DNA of 64,000 nucleotides from positions 3,288,501 through 3,352,500 of the forward strand of contig OY987226.1 of the NCBI GenBank assembly GCA_963920705.1. The letters are read 5' to 3'. Source of the stretch: Odiellus spinosus. Lineage: Eukaryota > Arthropoda > Arachnida > Opiliones > Phalangiidae. The notes beneath the pieces are model-generated. The model was not told where the DNA came from. It saw only the letters and a list, made by a program, of their open reading frames with translations, and did no database searches. A program made the position numbers and the translations under genes. This document shows positions 7,870 through 37,204 of this stretch, piece after piece (position 1 is the first letter of the stretch; each line of letters opens with the position of its first letter).

Positions 7870-10800
7870 GTGAGATATTTTTGATTTTATATATTTAATA
7901 AGAATGGTGACTATGAAATGGTTAGCTTGAACTATTTGGGGATAGTACCTCTAACACTTGAGGAATATTGAAAATTTACATCTTTGTGTACAATATTTAA
8001 ACTTGTATAGGCCATAATGCCCTTCTCATAATGAATGTCCAACTTAATTCACTACAAAGAGAGGGGTGTCAGTGGTTAGCACTGTTGTCTCACAGTGGGT
8101 CCAGGTTTGATTAATCTTAAATGCGTTTTTCTACTCCCACAGACTTGTTAGTAAAAACCTTCCCGGTACAAGTAGTGAAGCTGACAAGAGTGTTGCCGAA
8201 GAAGATGACAGGGTTGACGAAGAAAGTCCCGATTTGCCAACACCTAGTAACGCTGCCAAAGAAGCAGAAATTAGCTCAATAGCCAGTTCCGTTAGAAAAC
8301 TTTTAAGAGGGTCGTCGTCGTTGGACAATCCCGATTGTAGCGAACCCGTGTCGGAAGCCGAAATGGAATCATCGGGTGAAGAAGACATTGACATTGAAAC
8401 GGGTGACGTTACCGCGTCAGATTTGAAAAGGGAAGGTTGTACCTTACTCTGTAAAGAAGAAACTACCATCTCGACCGTCATTTCCAGCGTCCCCGATAAA
8501 CCTTTGGTTAGTTTCTTTAGAGAAACAAATTTATATAATAGTTAACGCGGTGGTGAAAATATTGGGTATTTTTTTCATCTAGTTTCAGATGAAACGTAAA
8601 TCTGACGTAGTAGATGCCAAAGTAGATACCCCTGGTAAAAAACCGTGTCGAACTTTAGAAGTGTGCGAAACACCAACCGGTGACGCGTCTCTGGATAGCG
8701 GAACCGCCGATAATGAAGCGGATTTAGAATGCGATGTTAGTAGCCCTTTAACTGTTCCCAATCGCGTTTTAGCCATGGAACGAAGATTAGGAAAAGTTAA
8801 ACCCCCACCTCATTTAGAAGATTGGTTAGGGACATATCAGGTATGTTGGAAAATTAACGTTGTTTCCTGTTAAATCTCATATTTAAACAATTGTTTAGTC
8901 TTGGACTTCAGCTCAACGTTTAGCGGCTTTAGATCAATTAATAGAAATGTGTGAACCGACCCAAATTAGGCACATGATGTGCGTTATTGAACCTCAATTC
9001 CAGAGGGATTTTATTTCATTGTTGCCAAAAGAAGTAAGATTTCGTATCTTTTTGTTATAACAGCTGATGGTTGCCAATTTATAATTGATATATAATTAAG
9101 CCAAAAAAGTTCCTTGTGTTAATTATTGTTTTAATTTAGAAACTTAATAAGGATATTTTTTTAGACACTTTACTAACTTGGGTATCCTAGTTAGGGCTGC
9201 GTCAATTCATAATAAATTATACTCTTGTACTTTTTTTCAATCAACTAAATTCATAGTTTTTTAATTATTTACTGCAAAGTATGAGGAAAAATTCACAGGT
9301 AACATCTGGGAAAATTAAGGAAATGGGGTTTAACAAATGTTGTACGAACCTTGTAGGCCACGGACTGGTACTCATTGGATACCTAGATAATGGCAAGGCA
9401 CTTAAGACTCTCAACTGAGTACTCATATATATTATGGGTTGTCACTTCGCACTATTATAATTGTATATCAAGTATAAATATGTAAAATGACTTTCATTTT
9501 TCTCTTTTAGAAGTCCTTATTAATAATTTGATATTTATCTTCTTTTTCTTTTAGTTAGCCTTATACGTTCTGGCCTTCCTAGAACCTCGCGATTTATTAA
9601 GAGCCGCTCAAACTTGCCGTAACTGGAGAATCCTAGCGGAAGATAATCTATTATGGAGGGAAAAATGCCGGGAAGCCGGCATCGACGACGTGAGAGAAGT
9701 TTTAGGGAAAAGAAAAATTCGTAGTTCCAGTTCCATCAGTTTGTCGGTGGCTTCCAGTCCCAGCCCGTTGACGGGCAATGGCTTTTCTAATATCGATACC
9801 CTAATTCCTAGTCCTTGTAAAGCGGCTTTCATGATGCATCATAACATAGAAATGAATTGGAGGTTTCATCCCATTAGGACGCCAAAAGTATTCCATTTTT
9901 TTTACTTGATCTACGTACGGTCACATTAAGTGCTTTGAAACCATTTACGAACGGTTTGACTGTTTAAACGGTTTAAATTTTTTCCAAGTATCTAGTGTGA
10001 ACGCGACTTGGTTTCCAATTTCTGAAACATTTTGAATTTTTTCCCTCGCTGCAGGTTTTAAAAGGTCACGATGACCATGTAATAACTTGTCTACAGTTTT
10101 CTGGCAATAGAATAGTTAGCGGTTCCGATGATAACACTTTAAAAGTCTGGTCAGCCTCCTCAGGGAAAGTAAGTGTGATATATTATTTTAATATTGATCA
10201 GATCTCTATCTTTAACTCGGCAACTGTCAATTTGCATTGTTTTAGTGCCTACGAACTCTACAAGGACATACGGGAGGAGTTTGGTCTTCTCAAATGTCGG
10301 GAAACATTATCATTAGCGGTTCTACGGATCGCACGCTCAAAGTATGGAACGCGGATTCTGGTCACTGTATTCACACTTTATTCGGCCACACATCAACTGT
10401 CAGGTGTATGCACCTTCACGGAAGCAGGTAAGGAACTTTTTTTGGATTTGAGATCACTTAAGAGTTTTTTGGGCTGAGAAATTATCTTTAAATTAAAATT
10501 CATTGTATTTATGGTGATATTGTTAAAAATATTGGTATCGGTTAAACATAGAATAACAGCCAACACTAGTTTGAAAATTTCAAGTGTGAACCCAGGCTTT
10601 ATTTATAATATATACAAAATATATTATAGGGTTGTTAGCGGATCTCGGGATGCCACGTTACGGTTATGGGATATAGAAACTGGCGAATGTTTACACGTAT
10701 TAGTGGGGCACGTGGCTGCCGTTCGTTGCGTGCAATATAATGGACGTTTAGTAGTAAGCGGCGCTTACGACTACATGGTCAAAGTTTGGAATCCTGAAAG

Positions 10801-14668: not shown

Positions 14669-17600
14669 ATGGGTGTCATAAAGCTATATCAATCACCTGG
14701 GCTAAGCGAATGGCAAGTGAACCAAAAATGTAAAGAACTGGGGGAATTGATACCAGGAGTTACTGTGAAGTCATTGAGGACAGAATATTGCAATTATATC
14801 GAATCAATTGAGAAGTTATCGAAGGACTCTGTTAACAAACTGATTTGGATACTTGCGTCAGGTTTTAAGGACATAGTTAGCGAAGAAACTACTCTACTCA
14901 GAGGAAAGAATGAAACGGTTTTAATAGAAATTGGTCCAAGGTATATAAAATTTACAAACCTAATAATTTATAATAATATGAAAAAAAATATAGCCTTGTT
15001 ATAGTATAGTTTTTTGTTTTTAGACTAAACTTTTCTACAGCATTTTCAACCAATGCAGTATCCATCTGTTGGTCTATTGGTTTAAAAAGTGTGAAACGTT
15101 TTGAACGCTCTATTAGATATCTTATTGAAATTGAAGCCCACAATGAAGTTTCTTTCGTTGTGATTGAAAATCAAGTTAGTTTCTCAGTTTCTTTTGACCT
15201 GTAATGAAGAAAATCTTAACAATGAGCAATAATTAGTATACAGATGCCTTGCACGATCGTATGACTGAATGTCGCTACACAACTAATATTGAAACTTTCG
15301 ACTTGCAAGAAACTCCTAAACCTTGGAAAGAAGTAGATTTACTTAGGTACGGGCGCAAAGCTTTGGAGGATGTTAGTCAAGAATTAGGCTTAGCGTTTGA
15401 TGACTGGGACTTGGATTTCTATACGGATATGTTTTGTAATCAACTAAAAAGAAACCCAACGACGGTAGAGTGTTTCGATCTTGCTCAATCTAATAGCGAA
15501 CACAGTCGACATTGGTTCTTTAAAGGCCGAATGGTAATTGATGGAAACGAAGCTAAAGAATCACTCTTTGATATGATTGTCGATACTCAAAAGAATAGCA
15601 ATCAAAATAATGTAATCAAATTCTCCGATAATAGCAGGTATGTTCCTGAAATTTCATATTGCATTAAGCAAATATTCCTCATGACCGAAAATAACGACCC
15701 AAAACTTTAACTGTGTGACAAAAAGTATTCTTAAAATAATTGATCCTGATTAAAAAGATTGAATTGTGACTGAAAAATAGTAAATTTCCATTAAAAAAAA
15801 ATAATATTAATGCTCTAAAATATTTTAGCACAGATCTTAGTGGTCGTCTTTCCGGTTGAGTGTGAACTAAGCTTTAACAACTTGTTTCACACTTTTTGCA
15901 GCGCGATTCTAGGTTACGACATTCGTTACCTTAAACCTTCGGAAACTTCCTTCGCCAGTCCCATGTTTTTAACCGATGAAAATAGAGATATAATTTTTAC
16001 GGCAGAGACTCACAATTTTCCTACAGGAGTCGCTCCTTTCAGTGGTGCCACAACGGGAACTGGCGGTAGAATTAGAGACGTTCAAGCTGCTGGTAGAGGC
16101 GCTCACGTAATTGCTGGAACAGCAGCCTATTGTTTCGGCAATCTTAATATACCAGGCTATGAGTTACCGTGGGAAGATAGTTCCTTCGAATACCCAAATA
16201 ATTTCGCCAGACCTTTAGCCATTGCTGTCGAAGCTAGTAACGGAGCGTCTGACTACGGAAACAAATTTGGCGAACCAGTTTTGGCTGGATTTGCCAGATC
16301 CTTCGGAATGAAACTAGCCAATGGGGAACGTCGAGAATGGATCAAACCCATCATGTTTTCAGGGGGAATTGGAAGCATTTCACACGATCAGATTAAAAAA
16401 TTCGCCCCAGAGAAAGGAATGCTAGTTGTTAAAGTTGGAGGTCCAATTTATCGTATCGGAGTTGGTGGAGGATCGGCTTCTTCCGTTCACGTACAAGGGG
16501 ATCAAGAAGCGGCATTAGATTTTGGTGCTGTTCAAAGAGGGGATGCCGAAATGGAACAGAAATTGAATAGAGTTATACGTTCATGTTTGGAACGGCGGGA
16601 AGGAAACATCATTTGCAGTATTCATGATCAAGGAGCAGGTGGAAATGGTAATGATGTTTTTTTGTTGTTTGTGGTGTGTGTGAATATTCTGAAACTTGAC
16701 TTTAAATTATTTATTGTAATACATTTTTCATTTGCTTCAGGAAATGTGCTCAAAGAACTCGTGGAACCGGCTGGAGCAGAGATTCTAACGTCCGGTTTTC
16801 AACTTGGCGATCCAACAATATCGACTATGGAATTATGGGGAGCCGAATACCAAGAAAGCAATGCCATTTTGATTTCTGACAAACATAAATCAGATTTGGA
16901 AGCCATTTCCGCTCGAGAAAAGTGTCCAGTTTCTTTCGTAGGAACTGTGACTGGTGATGGGAAAGTCGTTTTAAAGGAAAATAATTCTAATAACTCTAGA
17001 CATCCGTTTGATATGGAACTGTCCTATGTTTTGGGTTCAATGCCGAGAAAAGTAAGTTGTGATGATGCGTTTTCCTCACCACTAACTGATTTTAAATCCA
17101 ATCAATAGGTATTTAAGATGGAATCCTATAAACCAGCCTTGGAACAGTTAAACCTACCTGATGATTTAACATTATTATCGTGTTTAGAAAGAGTTTTAAG
17201 ATTGCCATCTGTTGGTAGTAAAAGATATTTAACCAATAAGGTAATATTTGTTGTTTTATTTTACTAACTTGACGGAAACGCCATTTTTTACACTAGATCT
17301 CTAAAAGCTCCACTATATCAAGAAACTTATTATCTCAATCATTTTAAAGGGACTATCTGCGATTTTCAAACCCCCTTTAATGTCACCTTTCTTTTCTAAC
17401 TTAGCAGACGAGGTTGTACAAAACAAATTGTACAGTCGAAGCTAGGCTGCGTGCGTAAGGGAAGAGCATTTTAAAGGGGCAAGTTTCAGAGCAGATAGGG
17501 CCTTTAAAACATTGTTGGATAGACTCTCTAGGCTCTGATTAGTCAGGAAGCCTCTTTTTTAAAATATAAGCCTAGTGGTAAGCCTAAAAAAAGTTTCGAG

Positions 17601-25025: not shown

Positions 25026-26402
25026 TTAAACAGTAACGAGAGGTTTTGCTTCCTTGTTCACAACGTAGAATCTGTATTTGTTTCCAAATAATCCCCATAT
25101 AACAGCCGTGTTTTCAATGACTATATTGAATGGTACGGTGCACAAAGCGCCGATTAGTCTCAGTACGAAACGAATAGGTCCCAGTCGATAAAAGCTGAAT
25201 GATTTGATTACCCCGAAAACATACATGTAGATATTCACGGCTCCAATGAATGCGCACAAAATGGTGATAGGCTGCCAACACGGTATTGGAAATAAACCGG
25301 CTAAAATAATGTTGGACGTGCTTAACGGTATAGTGAGCCAAGAGTATAAGGATATGCTAAGGAAAATCTTTGTCGAGATAGGAATTGCTGGGCTGTGAAC
25401 GACTAGATATATGCCTTGAATCCAACGTTTTCTTTGCTGCACAAAATCCCAAACGGTGAATGGAGATTTTTCCCACATTTCACCTTCAATGAAATCAAAT
25501 GTGTAGCCATCTTTCGCCGCCACCATGCTAAAATAGCAATCTTCAGCGATCGATCCATCAATACCGTGATCGAAAGAAACCTTTTTTTCAGCTCCAGCTT
25601 GCGTTACCACGTAAGAACCTTTCCATCCAAACACTGGACGATGAAATTTTTTAAACTGAAAACGTAGCTTGCCCATGTCATCGGCTATTCGGAAGCTGTC
25701 TGCTAAAGTCGTTAGCCAATTAACGACGTTTTCATTGGCATACGTGATCAAACCTTGCCCAAATTGATGTTGCCCGTTGTAAGCAAAGTTTAATACTCCT
25801 TTAGCGGCATTTTCTGTGATGATTGTCTCTTCGTCTAAATGGACAATCCAGTCAGTGTCGTTAAGTAAATTAACTTCGTCTTCGAGGCAATACTGCAAAG
25901 CTCTAGCTTTAAACAAAGCGCCAGATTTTGTACGGTAGCTTGTAGGGACAACAACCTCTCTAATTCGAGCGTGTTTAGGTAGATTAAGAGGCTTGTCAGA
26001 CACTACTTCCATCATAAAGTTTTCCAGTCCCACATCTAAACACGTGTTCATGTTCCGTGTTACGTTGCTTTTAACTAAATCAGGATAATCTCCCCTCGTT
26101 ACGGTACGAATGCATATAAAAGGTGCCAGTAAAGGAGAACCCTTTAACGCAACCTTATCCGGGAAAGCATTGTAAATGACTAAGCCGAGGAAGTTGAATA
26201 TTGTCTGTGGTAGGGCTAGAAAGGGCAGGATTCGAAAAGCGTAAAGAAGAAATGTCCACAAATAACCGTAATTGCTAATTGGATCCACGTCTTCATAAGC
26301 AAATTTCCAAAGGTGGATTCCACCCGTGAACACTTCCATCACAATGATAAGCGTAAAAAATAGGATACAGTGGACAATATGTTTTCCTTGGCTGCTCAAC
26401 AT
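25026..26402 (-). CDS. egh: Egghead: beta-1,4-mannosyltransferase of arthro-series glycosphingolipids
   Basis: A single uninterrupted coding exon of 458 residues, matching the family length (about 457). By homology it transfers mannose from GDP-mannose to glucosylceramide at the ER/Golgi membrane. Seen: an N-terminal membrane segment (HCILFFTLIIVMEVF), a second near LLYAFRILPFLALP, the GT2 DXD-like motif HLDEET (about 188-193), EDCYF (about 287), the QQRKRWIQG motif (about 322), and C-terminal hydrophobic segments. The frame is open 24 codons further upstream, but I start at MLSSQGK because tttgttttcag, a good acceptor, ends just before 26427. The extra codons are therefore probably intron and 5' UTR. 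This also matches where the known family begins. No lesion seen. Confidence 0.94.
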   Translation of the reverse strand: MLSSQGKHIVHCILFFTLIIVMEVFTGGIHLWKFAYEDVDPISNYGYLWTFLLYAFRILPFLALPQTIFNFLGLVIYNAFPDKVALKGSPLLAPFICIRTVTRGDYPDLVKSNVTRNMNTCLDVGLENFMMEVVSDKPLNLPKHARIREVVVPTSYRTKSGALFKARALQYCLEDEVNLLNDTDWIVHLDEETIITENAAKGVLNFAYNGQHQFGQGLITYANENVVNWLTTLADSFRIADDMGKLRFQFKKFHRPVFGWKGSYVVTQAGAEKKVSFDHGIDGSIAEDCYFSMVAAKDGYTFDFIEGEMWEKSPFTVWDFVQQRKRWIQGIYLVVHSPAIPISTKIFLSISLYSWLTIPLSTSNIILAGLFPIPCWQPITILCAFIGAVNIYMYVFGVIKSFSFYRLGPIRFVLRLIGALCTVPFNIVIENTAVIWGLFGNKYRFYVVNKEAKPLVTV

Positions 26403-27643
26403 GATTACTTGTAATTTCAAAAATAGTCTGAAAACAAAATCGTTTTTATGAGAGATGGGGACACTCATTGACAAAGCCTGTTTGCTTCCCTCTAACCCTG
26501 CCTTAGGATGTCTTCTAATTCAGTGCCAAAACATTGAATTTAAAACCACAATGCAGCTACAATGATTAATATTTGTCTTTTTTTAAGATTAATACATGAC
26601 TGGGTTACAAAAAAGACCAGCCCACAACAATTATTGGAGATGAGGAACCTACAGGACAACAGCAAGACTCTGGTCTTCAGTTGCATGTTTAGAGCCAGTA
26701 CTTAATTCCATGTGGCATGCTACTTGAGGGGATCTGCAGGTAAGCCCATTAAATTCAACGTTTTGGCGCATCAACTCATCCGACTTAACGGATTCAGCAT
26801 AGGGTTATAACTTATAAGGTAGTATCTTATGGCGTTTTCCATTGATCTGCTGAGGTGCAGTTCAAAGAAAAAGTCCATTAGCACCATTAGTCATGTAAAT
26901 TTCCGATTTCGTAGATAAATTAAATATCTAAGCCTTTGCCACCTACTTGGGTTTTGAACTTTTGATTGCGATTCTCAGTCTGCCTTGTCGATTTCTGGGA
27001 AACTCGAAGCTTAGGTTAAAATAACTGTATTTTAAACTTCGGCCATCTTATGGTTATTAATTTTTGGCTACTTTTTTGTTACCTGTCTGACCTAATTCGA
27101 AAGATGAAACGAAACGAACCTAGCCTATACGAGCCGTGCTTTCCCGCAGCGGTTTCCCACGGTTTCTACATAAAACCTTGTGAAAAACGCGACAGTAATT
27201 AACGAATCAGAGACTCCGAACGGAAGTGACAGAAAAAAAATTATTGCGTCACAGCCGGCAATGTTTCGGATGCGAACACACCCTCTTAACCTTGAACAAA
27301 AAAAGCTCCTGCATAAGTATGCAATAACAAGTCCGTTTCTTTCATTTGATTGGTTACGTGAAAGATGGGGGAAGGAGCTTATTTATTTTTTGTGTTGGAA
27401 GGCGGCAACCACGAAAGAAGATTTTAGGATTTTGTCTGCTATATCTTCTGTCAGCGATGAGTAAACCAAATTAGACATTTGAAAATAACTTTTTTAAATC
27501 TATAAATATGGATAAAATTGGCGCAAGGTATGTTGGATTAAACAAATTTCGATAAAATGGTACTTTTTGCAATTGATGTATAATTGCGGCTAAAATTTAT
27601 TATCAAAAATTAGAGAATTCCACTGAGCCTAACTCACTATAGA
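26403..27643. other. Upstream region of egh, no gene recognised
   Basis: Probably holds the egh 5' UTR exon(s), since an acceptor for the minus strand lies at 26427/26428. An open frame at 27180-27464 (plus) starts with GTG and has no recognisable domain, so it is not called. I see nothing else I can support. Confidence 0.4.
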
Positions 27644-30448: not shown

Positions 30449-31847
30449 TTAGTTCATGGGAGGTTGTTGTTGTTTCTTCGAATGAAATCTGACATCATGT
30501 TCGCGTCTTTGACTGGGCGAAATGAAGCCCCGTCCGCATTGTGTGCACTGATGAGGATACTGTTTCGTGTGAACGCAAATGACGTGAGCTTTGAGCGAAC
30601 TGGCTTGCGTGAAGCTTTTGAAACAAATGGAGCAAGTGTAAGGACGCTCCTTCGTATGCACGCGCATGTGACATATCAGCGTGTTACGAAGTGTGAAACA
30701 TTTTCCGCAGTCCAAACACTTCAGGGGACGCAAATTAGTGTGCGTTTTTAGGTGCGAGTCCAAGTTTCGCTGGCTAACAAATATTTTACTACAGCGGGGG
30801 CATGGGAAGTATCGCCCGTCTCCCGGATCCATCACCCGTTTAGTTTTTGATTTTCGAGGTTCCGATTGGCCACCCGGGCCAGTCACGTGATTCGCGCGGG
30901 AAGTCGAAGGCCCGTGATTGGCTCGCGGCGTCGACGCCCCGTTGTGATTAGGTCGCGATGATGGCGGTTGTTGTTGTTGTTGCTGCTGCTGCTGCTGATT
31001 TTGGGCCTGAGCTTGTTGATGTTGAGGAGGCGGAGGAGCGGCCGTAACGGCGGCGGCAGCAGCAGCGGCTGCCGCCGCGGAAACTGCCGTGTTCGGTAGC
31101 GCGGCTTCCCGTAAACCCGGGTCCGGACTCGGTCTACAATGACTGTCTTGTACATCCCGATTAAGGTTACAAGGCGAAGAATGATGATTCGACGTACGAA
31201 TCGGCCCTCTCGGTGGTTTAAGTTCGACATTGCTACAAAAATTAAAATCCCAATTACGAGACTCGATTTTCTTAGCATACAAAAATTTTTGGCCTCGAGC
31301 CCGCTCCGTTCCGCACGGAGGCTTATCGTACCGTTATGTCGAACGGACCCCATTATATACGCGCGCGGAAGCCTCCCCTATTTCCCCCATTTTGCAAGGA
31401 CGCCTATACAGGCGCCATGATACGTAAAGTTTAAAAAATCCTATACAAAGTCAGGCGTGCTACGGTAATTTACGTAGTTGTCAACCTATACAGAATTTTG
31501 GTAAATAAAGCCAACGTGCACGGCGCGCGTTTTCTAGCTCGTCGTTCGACACCCGTAAAAATAGCTAGGAATTATTTTTCGCGTCCCAATCTAAAATAAC
31601 GGAGAAGATGCCTCGCACGAGACGGGAAAAGAGAAAGGGAAGAACCCATTATCGCGGAGGAGCTATATTCGTAGTTCATGCTCTGGGCCTACCTTGTAGG
31701 CCTATATCGACGCGCTGCATCCTGCGGGAAACTGGAAACGTCCGGCTGACGATGATGATGGTCCATGAAAATTCCGGCACTCGGTGGATAATTTTGCAAA
31801 TGACTAAATAGTCCGCTCGACATTTTGTTAAAATGTTCGAGATTCAT
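30449..31847 (-). CDS. C2H2 zinc-finger protein with four fingers and Ala/Gln tracts, unnamed
   Basis: Exon 1 is 31693-31847 (MNLEHFNKMSSGLFSHL..., donor ACAAG|gtaggc). Exon 2 is 30449-31232 (acceptor tttttgtag). The AG|C junction restores serine and the frame, giving 312 residues. The long frame of exon 2 extends upstream without an ATG, which is why a first exon is needed. Four C2H2 fingers lie at about 196-216, 224-244, 252-273 and 281-302, with TGE-like linkers replaced by THTNLRP and HTKERP. Before them are a 10-Ala tract (about 104-113), a 10-Gln tract (131-140) and a basic KSKTKR stretch. Inferred role: nuclear DNA-binding transcription regulator. I do not recognise the orthologue. The local sequence is GC-rich, unlike its neighbours. 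Confidence 0.82.
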
Positions 31848-32399: not shown

Positions 32400-35300
32400 A
32401 TGGCTTATAGGCCTAAACGTCGAGTGATAGGAAGTTTAGAGCCTAGGGGAAGATACGATCATCATAAAATCGTCGAAATTAGTGTTGAATTTTATCTACA
32501 TCAAATAGAAAATCTAAAGTTAATAGAGAAAAAATTTACTGAAATCGCCAAAAAACTGAAGCAACATTGCGGCATTAAATTGATTAAGCAACGTTACAGT
32601 AATACCTCAACATCTGTAACATTGAGTGAACGTTTATATCTTAAAATTGAATGTGCGGGTGAAAGCTCTAATTTTCCAAAAGAGACCTCCCAAGCTTACT
32701 CAATTTTTCAAAAAGACTTTGTGAAAATTGTTCTTGAAGAAATAGCAAATCATATTGATCGACCCTGGCTGAGTTTTAATCGTAGCAATGCCTATCCAAG
32801 ATATTTTACTAGCGCTCATGAAGATGTCAAAATTGCGAATATTAAAATTGGAACGTTAGTCTCTTGCAGTAAATTTATCGGCCATTTAGCTAGAGGTGTG
32901 CGTGAAGTAAATTTTTTACATGATAATCGTAAGATAGTTATTGATGATCAGTTAGAAATTCAGTACAGTTCCTTCAAAAACATTCTTGTTTATGGAAAAG
33001 AGTGGGTAATACAGGTTTTGCATCCGCCAATAATTTACTCTACTAAAGAAACCAAGTTTTCTCGCCTCAGCGTCAATCCTTTCATATTAGGTCGATGCAA
33101 TGCTATTCTACTCAACTTTGAGAATGAATACGAAGCTAATCAAATTTTATCCCGCATATATTATTGCTGTCAAAACTTTAGTTTAAAAATCTACTACGTT
33201 TGTTTCGAAACACATTCGCAAAAAGTCCCTGATAAATTGTTAAAATTTGATTTCGGTTTGTTCGAAATAAATTACCTGATCGAAGCCATTTTAAGAAGAA
33301 GTTACGCTCTAGAGTTGCAAGGTTTTCTTGCTTTTCGAGTGACTGTTCAAAATTTGCTTAGAAAAAATGCCATAGTTTTAACCGAAGCGTTGAAGGAGTT
33401 AATTTATTCAATGGATGCCGGTTTAGTCTTTCAATTCGAGAGTTTTTTGCAAGAATCATTCGAAATAAAAATCAATGATAAAGTTGCAAACATCTTGGAA
33501 ATAATTCCTGAAAAAATTAAACTAGTTAGAAGAGCCGTTATTACTCCAACTCGGGTTCTACTCTACCCACCTGAACTGATAATTACGAATAGAGTCATTC
33601 GTAAATTTCACATAGATTCCTCTCTAAGAGTAGCATTTCGGGATGACAGTTTGAACAAATTCTCTCAAAGTAATGGCAGATATATCAGAAGAGATGTTAT
33701 TTCAAAAACGGTTAACAGTATCGTGGATGGAATAAATATTGCTAAAAGAAAATTTGAGTTTTTGGGCTGGTCCTGTTCTCAAATTAGAGATCATGGTTTA
33801 TGGATGTACGCCAAAGACCCGCAAGGCAACACCGCAGTGTCTATTCAAAGATGGATGGGAGATTTCTCAAATATCAGAGTGGTGGCTAAATTTGCAGCAA
33901 GAATGGGACAATGTTTTTCGCAAACGGAAGAGACTGTCGCTGTACCCTTAATCGAAGGTAGAGTTAAAACGGAGGAAGATATCGTAGGAAGTGAAATTGA
34001 CCCAGAAAGCAAAGAGCCTTATGTCTTTTCCGACGGAGTTGGGAAAATTTCATCCGATTTAGCCCAAAAAGTGTGTCATAGACTGGAACTTGCGAAACCA
34101 TGCAGCGCTTTCCAGATAAGATATTCCGGTTACAAAGGGATGCTCGTCGTTGATCCAACACTGAAAGACTTTGATATTATTTTTCGTGAAAGTATGAAGA
34201 AATTTGAGTGCGCATCTTCCCAGACTTTAGAAATAGTCAAGACATCGCAAGCGTGTAATTAATTTAATCTAGGAATGATAGATGTTACACTGGAAATTCT
34301 TAAGAATTTAGAATTGGCCTTGTTCAAATGTCTCATTTAGTGATGTCGATCATGAATAACGTTTTGGGTTATGACAGCTTTTCTTCCCCCGCATCACTGA
34401 TCTGTCATAGTCTCAAGTTATAACGCCTCTTAGTGGCCTAGCTTAATGAAAAATAACTAGATTGAGACAAATAATTAATAAATTTCTTTACAACTTTTCT
34501 ATCTAATAATAAATAGTTACAATCGATAAATCTTATTTTTCCTCACAATTGATAAACTACTCCAAGCCTGGGAATTTATCGAGTGACTTAAATGCTAGCA
34601 ACCAATCAGGGAAAACAGTTAAAGAGTACATGGTTTCATCACTTCTCAGCTAGCTATGCATAAATAGTAACCCCCAGTTTGGAAAATGTTCCTACAATAG
34701 GGTCTATAAGAATTCCCAGTGTAACTTCCATCCTTGATTTAATTCATCAACATTTCACTGTGGGTATTTATTTCTTTTATTTCTTAGGCGGCCTGATGTT
34801 AAACCGACCATTCATAACCATTCTAGACCAAATGGGAATAGAACACTCAGTTTTTCTTAAAATTCAAAATGAAACCTTGCAATGTTACACCGACATGTTT
34901 CTGGATGATGAAAAAGCAGTTGCCTACTTAAGGATGCGTCGCAATATGCCAAATATTCAATTTGATGAGTTTATTACTTCGGGAATTTTCCCTACAGTTG
35001 AACCTTTTTTTCACGCTATGATGTTAACAGGCCATAAATTTGAAATTGGTATGTGTTCGAGACACAACTGCCCAGGCTAACCTCACACCGCTATGTCTGT
35101 TCCGACACTTCTACTCAATTGTTTCTCATCTTCTGCAAACACCTTTTTCCCGTCTAAAATAATTTGTATTACGCGGAACAGTTTTTATCCACCTCTTTTA
35201 AAGTCAACTTTTCTTGCTTAGCATATGACATTGTCCATAACAAATTGTACCGTCATAGCAAGGCTGTGTGCATAAGGGAAGATGATATTAAAGGGTCAAA

Positions 35301-37204
35301 TTTCAGAGCAGATAGGTCCTTTAAGCCTACTTAAAAAGGCTCGCCTATTGGTGGGAGATTACACTCGCTTAATGTACATCGACGGAGAAAGAAGAAACAA
35401 TGGTCAAAGGGATAGAAATTGCATGTATTTTACTCGGGAAAAAGCGTGTTGCAGCTGATGCAATGTCATTGAGTAGAAAGTGTCAGGAGGGACCCAACAA
35501 CATTTTCATTTTTAGCTCAAATCATGAAGAAAGCCAGAATTCCTATCAATCCATCAGACGGTCGAAACTTGTTTGGTGTTCTTGATGAAACTGGTACCTT
35601 AAACTACGGAGAAATTTTTATTCAGTACACTACGAATCTTATTGGGCAAGTGTGTCGCATTGTTTTATTCTACCTACGCTATATAGTTGATTAATTAATA
35701 AATCTCTTTATTATAGACGAGTGATTTATTGAAGTTCTTCTCTATGTTTATCGTCAATGATCGTATTGGTCCATTAGCGAACGCCCATTTAGCTACGGCA
35801 GATAATTTTGGGTTGCGTCACGAGCTCTGCACTTTATTAGCAAGAAACTGTAGCGTCGCTGTGGATTTTTCCAAAAGTGGCGTTGCTCAAGAATTAGAAG
35901 ATATTAGTAATGTCAAGTGGTATCCGGATTTTATGGAGAAATTTGACAAAACTACTTACAAATCAAAAAGAGTGTTGGGAAAACTCTACCGAAATTGCCT
36001 CGCTTATTCTCGAACTAATTCCAATTTTCCGAATCGCTACGAAAATATTCAGGTAAATTAATTTTAAAATTGAAACCTTTTGTCGCGCGTAATGCCTGTC
36101 CATTGTTAATAATCTTACAAAGCGCTTATAACATTATAGGTGGATCCTTTACTAATATATCCTGGTTGGGAAAAGTACAAATCAAAGGCCATTGAATCTA
36201 GAAACAAATATAACAGTTTTCTCGATTCAATTTTTATCAACTATGGCGTTATTCACGAGAGTGAAGCGATGACTGGATTATATACTAGACTAAACGGTCG
36301 ATTTAGCGTCAAAAACGGTCAAAATGAAGCGGAAGCGCTTATTAAAATACTTCTACAAAGCTTATGGCGTTGCTTTAAGCACGATTTTGATGAGGAATTC
36401 TTGACTGAATCGATGATTGTTGTCGATGAAATTAAGAAAAAGGCCTCTGCCTGGTATATTGTAACGTATAGCGAAAAAAATCCCAAATTTTTAAGCTTCC
36501 CTTGGATAGTTTCGAAATATTTGCTCAATATTAAATACGGAAATATTTCTGAAAAGGAGATAAGATTGAGCGAGAAACCGGTAATTAACAAGTTAGAAAG
36601 TCTAGTTGCCTTAAAATTAGCGGTAACGTTGCCAGTTATTGATAAAGCTAGAATATTAGTCGAAAAATGGGCTTTTTATCATAAATTTAGCTCGAATGAA
36701 GTTTTGAAACTATTCTCTCCAACAAATACCGCTTGTAGCGAATCCATTTGTTTAGTTTTGGAATTTTTCAAATACATCGTAGAAATAAGCATGCGCGATG
36801 AAATTGGTATCACAGCGGAGTTAAACTCGCGTAAATGTAATATAAAATGGGAATCTATCGAATATATTGCTAGAGAAGCCAGGAATTCGTATCAACACAT
36901 TGCTGTTAAAAAGGATCTTAAACCGTTCGGGTTATCGCCATCGTGTAGTTATAATAAACCCAATCTTATAGAAATGGAGCCATTATCAATTTCCGAAGAC
37001 GTTATAGAGTTTAGTAATTTGGATGATCTTTCAAATTTTTTTAAAGTTAGATCTAGGGTTAAAGAAGTTAAAACCAGGCTTGTGGGTGGTAAAATTTTAA
37101 TTAGCGCTATTGGCGACGAAATTGCGATTGAAAATTTGCAACAAATGATCAGGAAAGGGTCTAATTGGATCAAAAAGTCCTTTGGACCTCAACCTACGGG
37201 CTAA
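32400..37204 (+). CDS. Eukaryotic RNA-dependent RNA polymerase (RdRP) family protein lacking the catalytic DxDGD segment
   Basis: Exons: 32400-34254, 34788-35048, 35516-35649, 35717-36052, 36140-37204. The frame is uninterrupted, giving 1,216 residues. The family (plant RDRs, QDE-1, C. elegans EGO-1/RRF) makes second-strand RNA for small-RNA silencing. Conserved blocks are present in order: VFSDGVGKISSD (about 543), RYSGYKGMLVVDP (574), LMLNRPFITILDQ (620), GRNLFGVLDETGTLNYGE (720-737), then VNDRIGPLANAHLATAD (about 761) and the C-terminal helical region. Between FIQYTTNLIGQ (750) and TSDLLKFF (751), joined by a 67-bp intron, the expected HPGD-R and DLDGD catalytic blocks (over 100 residues) are absent. 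They are not elsewhere in the window either. Without those aspartates the product should not polymerise. Either a non-catalytic derivative, a recent in-frame deletion, or an assembly loss. Confidence 0.85.
35190..35325. mobile_element. MITE fragment of the AAAGG-CTATCTGC family in RdRP-like intron 2
   Basis: Shares TTCTTGCTTAGC, AACAAATTGTAC, AAGGCTGTGTGCATAAGGGA and GAGCAGATAGG with the copies at 17343 and 42960. It lies within the 35049-35515 intron. The left terminus is diverged. Confidence 0.6.

Follow-up and report, generated by a model that had tools for sequence, protein, structure and literature searches.

A cellular RNA-dependent RNA polymerase gene of the arachnid Odiellus spinosus that lacks its catalytic segment, probably through a recent deletion

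Does a gene of the RNA-dependent RNA polymerase (RdRP) family that has no catalytic segment still encode a protein with a function, or is it a copy that was disabled only recently? This question is raised by a locus of the arachnid Odiellus spinosus (Opiliones, Phalangiidae). The window, i.e. the whole stretch of 64,000 nucleotides analysed here (C2:3288501-3352500), belongs to a contig of 34.5 Mb in a genome of 443 Mb and 286 contigs, and the assembled DNA of this one genome constitutes the evidence base. At positions 32400-37204 on the + strand it contains a member of the cellular RdRP family PF05183, whose profile is matched above the cut-off (23.8 bits) by four of the five exons with 223, 37.2, 36.1 and 74.5 bits. 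Exon 1 (32400-34254) encodes the N-terminal region and the start of the family domain (Pfam positions 1-239), exon 2 (34788-35048) covers Pfam positions 243-325, a shortened exon 3 (35516-35649) positions 331-370 and exon 4 (35717-36052) positions 480-581, and exon 5 (36140-37204) encodes a C-terminal region in which no Pfam family scores above cut-off. An earlier interpretation made from the letters alone (the sequence-only reading) had described 1,216 codons open over five exons, and this five-exon model is indeed free of stops and frameshifts if the splice proposed between exons 3 and 4 is assumed. Rather than the proposed 67-bp intron, the automatic gene-model script chose to read through this junction, at the price of one stop and an unusual skip of 1 base; for all comparisons its junction was replaced by the earlier splice model, so the frame is to be called open under that assumption.

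Between exons 3 and 4 the family domain is interrupted. Since Pfam positions 331-370 lie in exon 3 and positions 480-581 in exon 4, about 109 positions (371-479) are missing, and the family blocks that had been described on both sides of the active site are found, the one in exon 3 as GVLDETGTLNYGE and the one in exon 4 as VNDRIGPLANAHL. The aspartates of the DxDGD motif of cellular RdRPs bind metal, and this metal-binding loop, a trait of active RdRPs, is not present in the gene. The missing segment is presumably part of the catalytic barrel. It is absent from the assembled DNA of the window, which contains no Ns. That an exon with the active site lies concealed in an intron or on the opposite strand is rejected, because neither D.DGD nor HPGD was found in the six frames of the 64-kb window.

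The other members of the family in this genome allow the gap to be placed. A genome search with PF05183 yielded 47 matches that were grouped into nine genes and one relict. Besides the window gene these are eight paralogues (L009-L016; a further locus, L017, overlaps L016), all eight of them with DLDGD, so that the search for an active paralogue proposed along with the sequence-only reading points to eight RdRP genes that keep the catalytic motif and may be active. The closest one, L010 (C2:1991439-1997028), lies 1.3 Mb from the window gene and shares 74% identity with it in the core, compared with 39-51% for the seven others; in exon 1 the identity with L010 is 54.6% (amino acids 36-556 of the window protein) and in exon 5 it is 49%. 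Domain order and intron positions are common to the window gene and all eight paralogues, which retain the KNPC..GD and GSDLDGD blocks, whereas the window gene is without about 110 residues there. For L009, L015 and L016 the gene models are approximate, and the L016 model carries a stop in the C-terminal part. As comparison structures the solved RDR-type enzymes 7w84 (“RNA-dependent RNA polymerase”) and 7roz (“RNA-dependent RNA polymerase 2”) are available. Of the 553 residues in the L010 domain, 4-553 align with 7w84 (E 9.7e-94). A hand count on this alignment shows that the window gene has nothing corresponding to residues from about 756 to 866 of 7w84, DLDGD among them. Eighty-two positions are universal, being identical in all eight paralogues and in that part of 7w84 which could be aligned, and 25 of them fall into the gap.

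Two further features of these genes were seen. Near positions 34070/34071 the window gene is without an intron that the models place in all eight paralogues, and which in L010 reads as a 62-bp GC-AG intron. The relict L018 (C6:6690000-6699000) is degenerate, with a TAG in its match to the KNPC-like exon; it also holds DLDGD, in a block about 3 kb away from that match, and by eye a frame break follows DLDGD and the nearest relative is L014.

The anatomy of the junction is best understood from L010. There ..TTDLLGQ is followed within exon 3 by ETNKNTSILK and one base, up to a phase-1 donor. A 66-bp intron separates this donor from the catalytic exon of 272 bp, and a further intron of 892 bp lies between the latter and exon 4. 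In all, L010 is about 1.2 kb longer here than the window gene. The match between the window gene and L010 runs to GGGCAA (35649) and resumes at an acceptor that is also used by L010 (35716/35717), namely TTATTATAG, the position and phase of which are as in L010. Thus exon 3 of the window gene ends ten full codons and one base short of the donor of L010, and because exon 3 of L010 continues past the end of homology, the left edge of the gap lies inside the ancestral exon 3. In the other seven paralogues, too, visual inspection showed a later exon-3 donor of the L010 kind (the script model of L015 places it elsewhere), hence the donor CAA|GTGTGT of the window gene is not ancestral. From these alignments the proposed 67-bp intron (35650-35716, + strand) is an ancestral acceptor paired with a weak, non-ancestral donor. 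The latter scores 5.15 in a matrix built from 42 GT-AG introns that were selected in the models by visual inspection; three of these belong to the window gene itself, and the GC-AG intron of L010 is excluded. Four of the 42 family donors score as low and eight of 181 decoy GTs within exons as high, and the acceptor ranks 27th of 42 counted from the weakest.

From this it follows how the earlier description of the junction has to be qualified. The phase-0 join of exons 3 and 4 across 67 bp exists as a model only, with a weak donor of non-ancestral origin, and without splicing the reading frame hits a stop at 35694; judged from the sequence, in-frame splicing across 35649/35717 is possible. Also the statement that exactly in-frame sequence was lost is weaker than it had been put. 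If exon 3 of L010 is joined computationally at its donor directly to exon 4, one extra base is left, and a clean intron-to-intron loss of the whole exon is rejected because the frame would shift. The frame is open only by virtue of the weak, non-ancestral donor.

Several searches were devoted to remains or copies of the locus. A search with the L010 counterpart of the missing segment returned 12 matches, on contigs C1, C2, C5, C6, C11 and C17, and all 12 belong to the eight paralogues or to the C6 relict, i.e. no stray copy of the segment was found elsewhere in the genome. A mobile insertion at the junction was considered and rejected, as 35630-35735 matched only itself in a search that skips very common words. 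A second intact copy, be it a haplotig or a recent duplicate, was likewise rejected: in the copy search 40 of 2,332 candidates were scored, and the 56 matches listed comprise the window itself once, L010 four times (71-77% identity) and a dispersed repeat 51 times. This repeat lies at 35197-35324 in the intron before exon 3 and has at least 51 matches genome-wide with 72-89% identity, some of them adjacent.

With moderate confidence we favour a recent genomic deletion that left a probable null copy, paralogues that carry the active site remaining in the genome. Comparison with the paralogues, above all L010, shows the extent of this deletion: approximately ten codons at the end of the ancestral exon 3, one or more catalytic exons that carried KNPC..GD and SGSDLDGD (about 110 residues), and the greater part of the intron behind them. 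Since the metal-binding aspartates and part of the catalytic barrel would be lacking in any product, it should not polymerise RNA. As the remainder of the catalytic core shows no damage, the gene probably encoded a working polymerase during almost its entire separate existence, and the deletion is probably recent. Most likely the gene is now a null copy of young age, either fixed or still segregating in the species, its work being left to the paralogues.

Recent activity is argued for by the constraint on the retained sequence. All 57 universal positions outside the gap (identical in the eight paralogues and in 7w84) are kept in the window gene, so that the PF05183 core outside the active-site segment is conserved. 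Among 83 core positions that are invariant in the other eight proteins only one is changed (M to L), and L010 also shows one such change; in the flanks of exons 3 and 4 one of 30 invariant positions is changed. Relative-rate counts in the core reveal no difference between the window gene and L010 with any of seven outgroups (lowest p 0.23). A three-branch codon model over 1,086 codons gives a ratio of nonsynonymous to synonymous substitution rates (dN/dS) of 0.044 for the window branch and 0.043 for L010, and when the ratio of the window branch is fixed at 1, the log-likelihood drops by 17.65 units. The value near 1 that the sequence-only reading had named as the mark of an ordinary decaying pseudogene is thus far from what is found over the whole gene; in the 383 codons after the gap, where the ratio is 0.157, the same constraint costs 2.3 units and is a weaker test. 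A terminal neutral phase added to the window branch brings no gain in fit for the whole gene (95% limit about 0.033 substitutions per site, with one common dN/dS given to the window gene and L010), the flanks of exons 3 and 4 alone (134 codons) permit a neutral phase of about 0.1, and the absence of stops and frameshifts caps neutral divergence at about 0.005-0.009 under assumed indel rates, or at 0.015 by stops alone. Signs of decay (stops, frameshifts, relaxed constraint) were sought in the whole retained gene and none was found, the C-terminal part alone being uninformative. Taken together, the retained sequence appears to have evolved as tightly as its sister gene L010.

Some observations do not fit this smoothly. 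Because of saturation at synonymous sites, and because the outgroup branch reached its length limit in the codon model, the rate tests yield bounds and not dates. Over the whole length and compared with L011 the window gene has 80 unique changes and L010 has 61 (raw counts), the 0.157 obtained for the codons after the gap stands beside 0.098 for L010 (difference not significant), and the 293 C-terminal codons, taken by themselves, are compatible with any neutral phase up to 0.14. Moreover, when random junctions were simulated with the sequence of L010, a phase-0 donor at least as good as the present one arose within 2 nt of the join in 0.5% of cases and any usable in-frame donor in 1.8%, so the open frame would be a mild coincidence for a null copy.

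The last point bears on the rival that survives best, a maintained pseudoenzyme, in which the shortened protein is spliced in frame via the new donor and selected for a non-catalytic role such as the binding of RNA or of silencing partners. We regard this as rather unlikely, albeit with real arguments on its side: the 1,216 codons of the spliced model are open without stop or frameshift, the top-scoring GT within 35560-35714 coincides exactly with the end of homology and is in phase 0 (chance about 0.5-2%), the 67-bp intron has the size of the short introns of the family (14 of 42 introns measure 56-75 bp) and dN/dS is far under 1. All selection detected can, however, predate the deletion. A long non-catalytic period should have left some drift, but the universal positions outside the gap are unchanged without exception and the flanks of exons 3 and 4 are hardly altered; a stable fold is doubtful because the gap would remove part of the catalytic barrel. 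The sequence-only reading had offered a retained scaffold and a very recent deletion as outcomes. The evidence leans towards the latter, as a long-lived scaffold would be expected to lose some core residues and the gene has kept them with a dN/dS like that of L010. The more specific proposal of a selected non-catalytic animal RdRP, in which a new phase-0 donor exactly at the junction made the deletion through the catalytic barrel translatable and the resulting protein of 1,216 residues, otherwise intact in its core, modulates the eight paralogues, is unlikely.

An assembly artefact, i.e. a segment that is present in the animal and was lost during assembly, fits the same numbers, since the rest of the gene looks like an active enzyme and a missing-sequence error would also give this. 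There is a precedent in amphioxus, where an RdRP gene with a 1,657-bp direct repeat was judged an assembly artefact by the authors (PMC6396948). We consider such an error improbable here because of the contiguity, with chromosome-sized contigs and a window without Ns, and because no stray copy of the segment occurs on another contig; a second match to the junction is also lacking within the reach of the search. An old decaying pseudogene is very improbable: although the C6 relict demonstrates that the genome does contain one degenerate RdRP, the window gene apart from its gap shows no lesion in 1,216 codons, a neutral phase of the whole gene beyond the limit given above is rejected, and a lesion rate far below neutral would be required.

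The remaining window contains coding stretches for a WD40 protein (10001-10477, + strand), for an FGAR-AT linker and AIRS_C (15237-17108, + strand), for a glycosyltransferase of family 2 (25026-26519, - strand) and for a C2H2 zinc finger (30449-31333, - strand). Between 46710 and 55106 about 8 kb of low-complexity tandem arrays are found, mostly with 31-32-bp and 15-18-bp units, and the long mechanical open reading frames in this region look like repeat translations and not like genes. Elsewhere in the genome, contig C17 carries several partial copies of cox1, four of which have two internal TAG codons; the full cox1, open under the invertebrate mitochondrial code, resides on the 16-kb contig C286 next to a frame that by eye looks like nd2, and the C17 copies look like nuclear copies of mitochondrial DNA.

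In Acari it is usual to find several RdRP copies per genome, with one to five per species described in nine species (PMC7659050), and tick RdRPs are said to retain the catalytic site (PMC10062562). In amphioxus six candidate RdRPs are reported, three of them with intact DbDGD (PMC6396948), so animal candidates without an intact active site have already been reported, with faulty gene prediction as a possible cause there. The present case is comparable in this respect, and differs in that the DNA itself was examined and the gap was placed against eight paralogues. A literature search based on titles and the beginnings of abstracts, with the longest result lists seen in part, revealed no animal RdRP with this segment deleted. 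The amphioxus report treats the roles of animal RdRPs outside nematodes as unsettled (PMC6396948). If the deletion is real, the Odiellus gene would show an expanded animal RdRP family while it is losing one of its members. If the protein is made and kept, it would provide an uncommon opportunity to see whether RdRPs can act in silencing when they do not polymerise.
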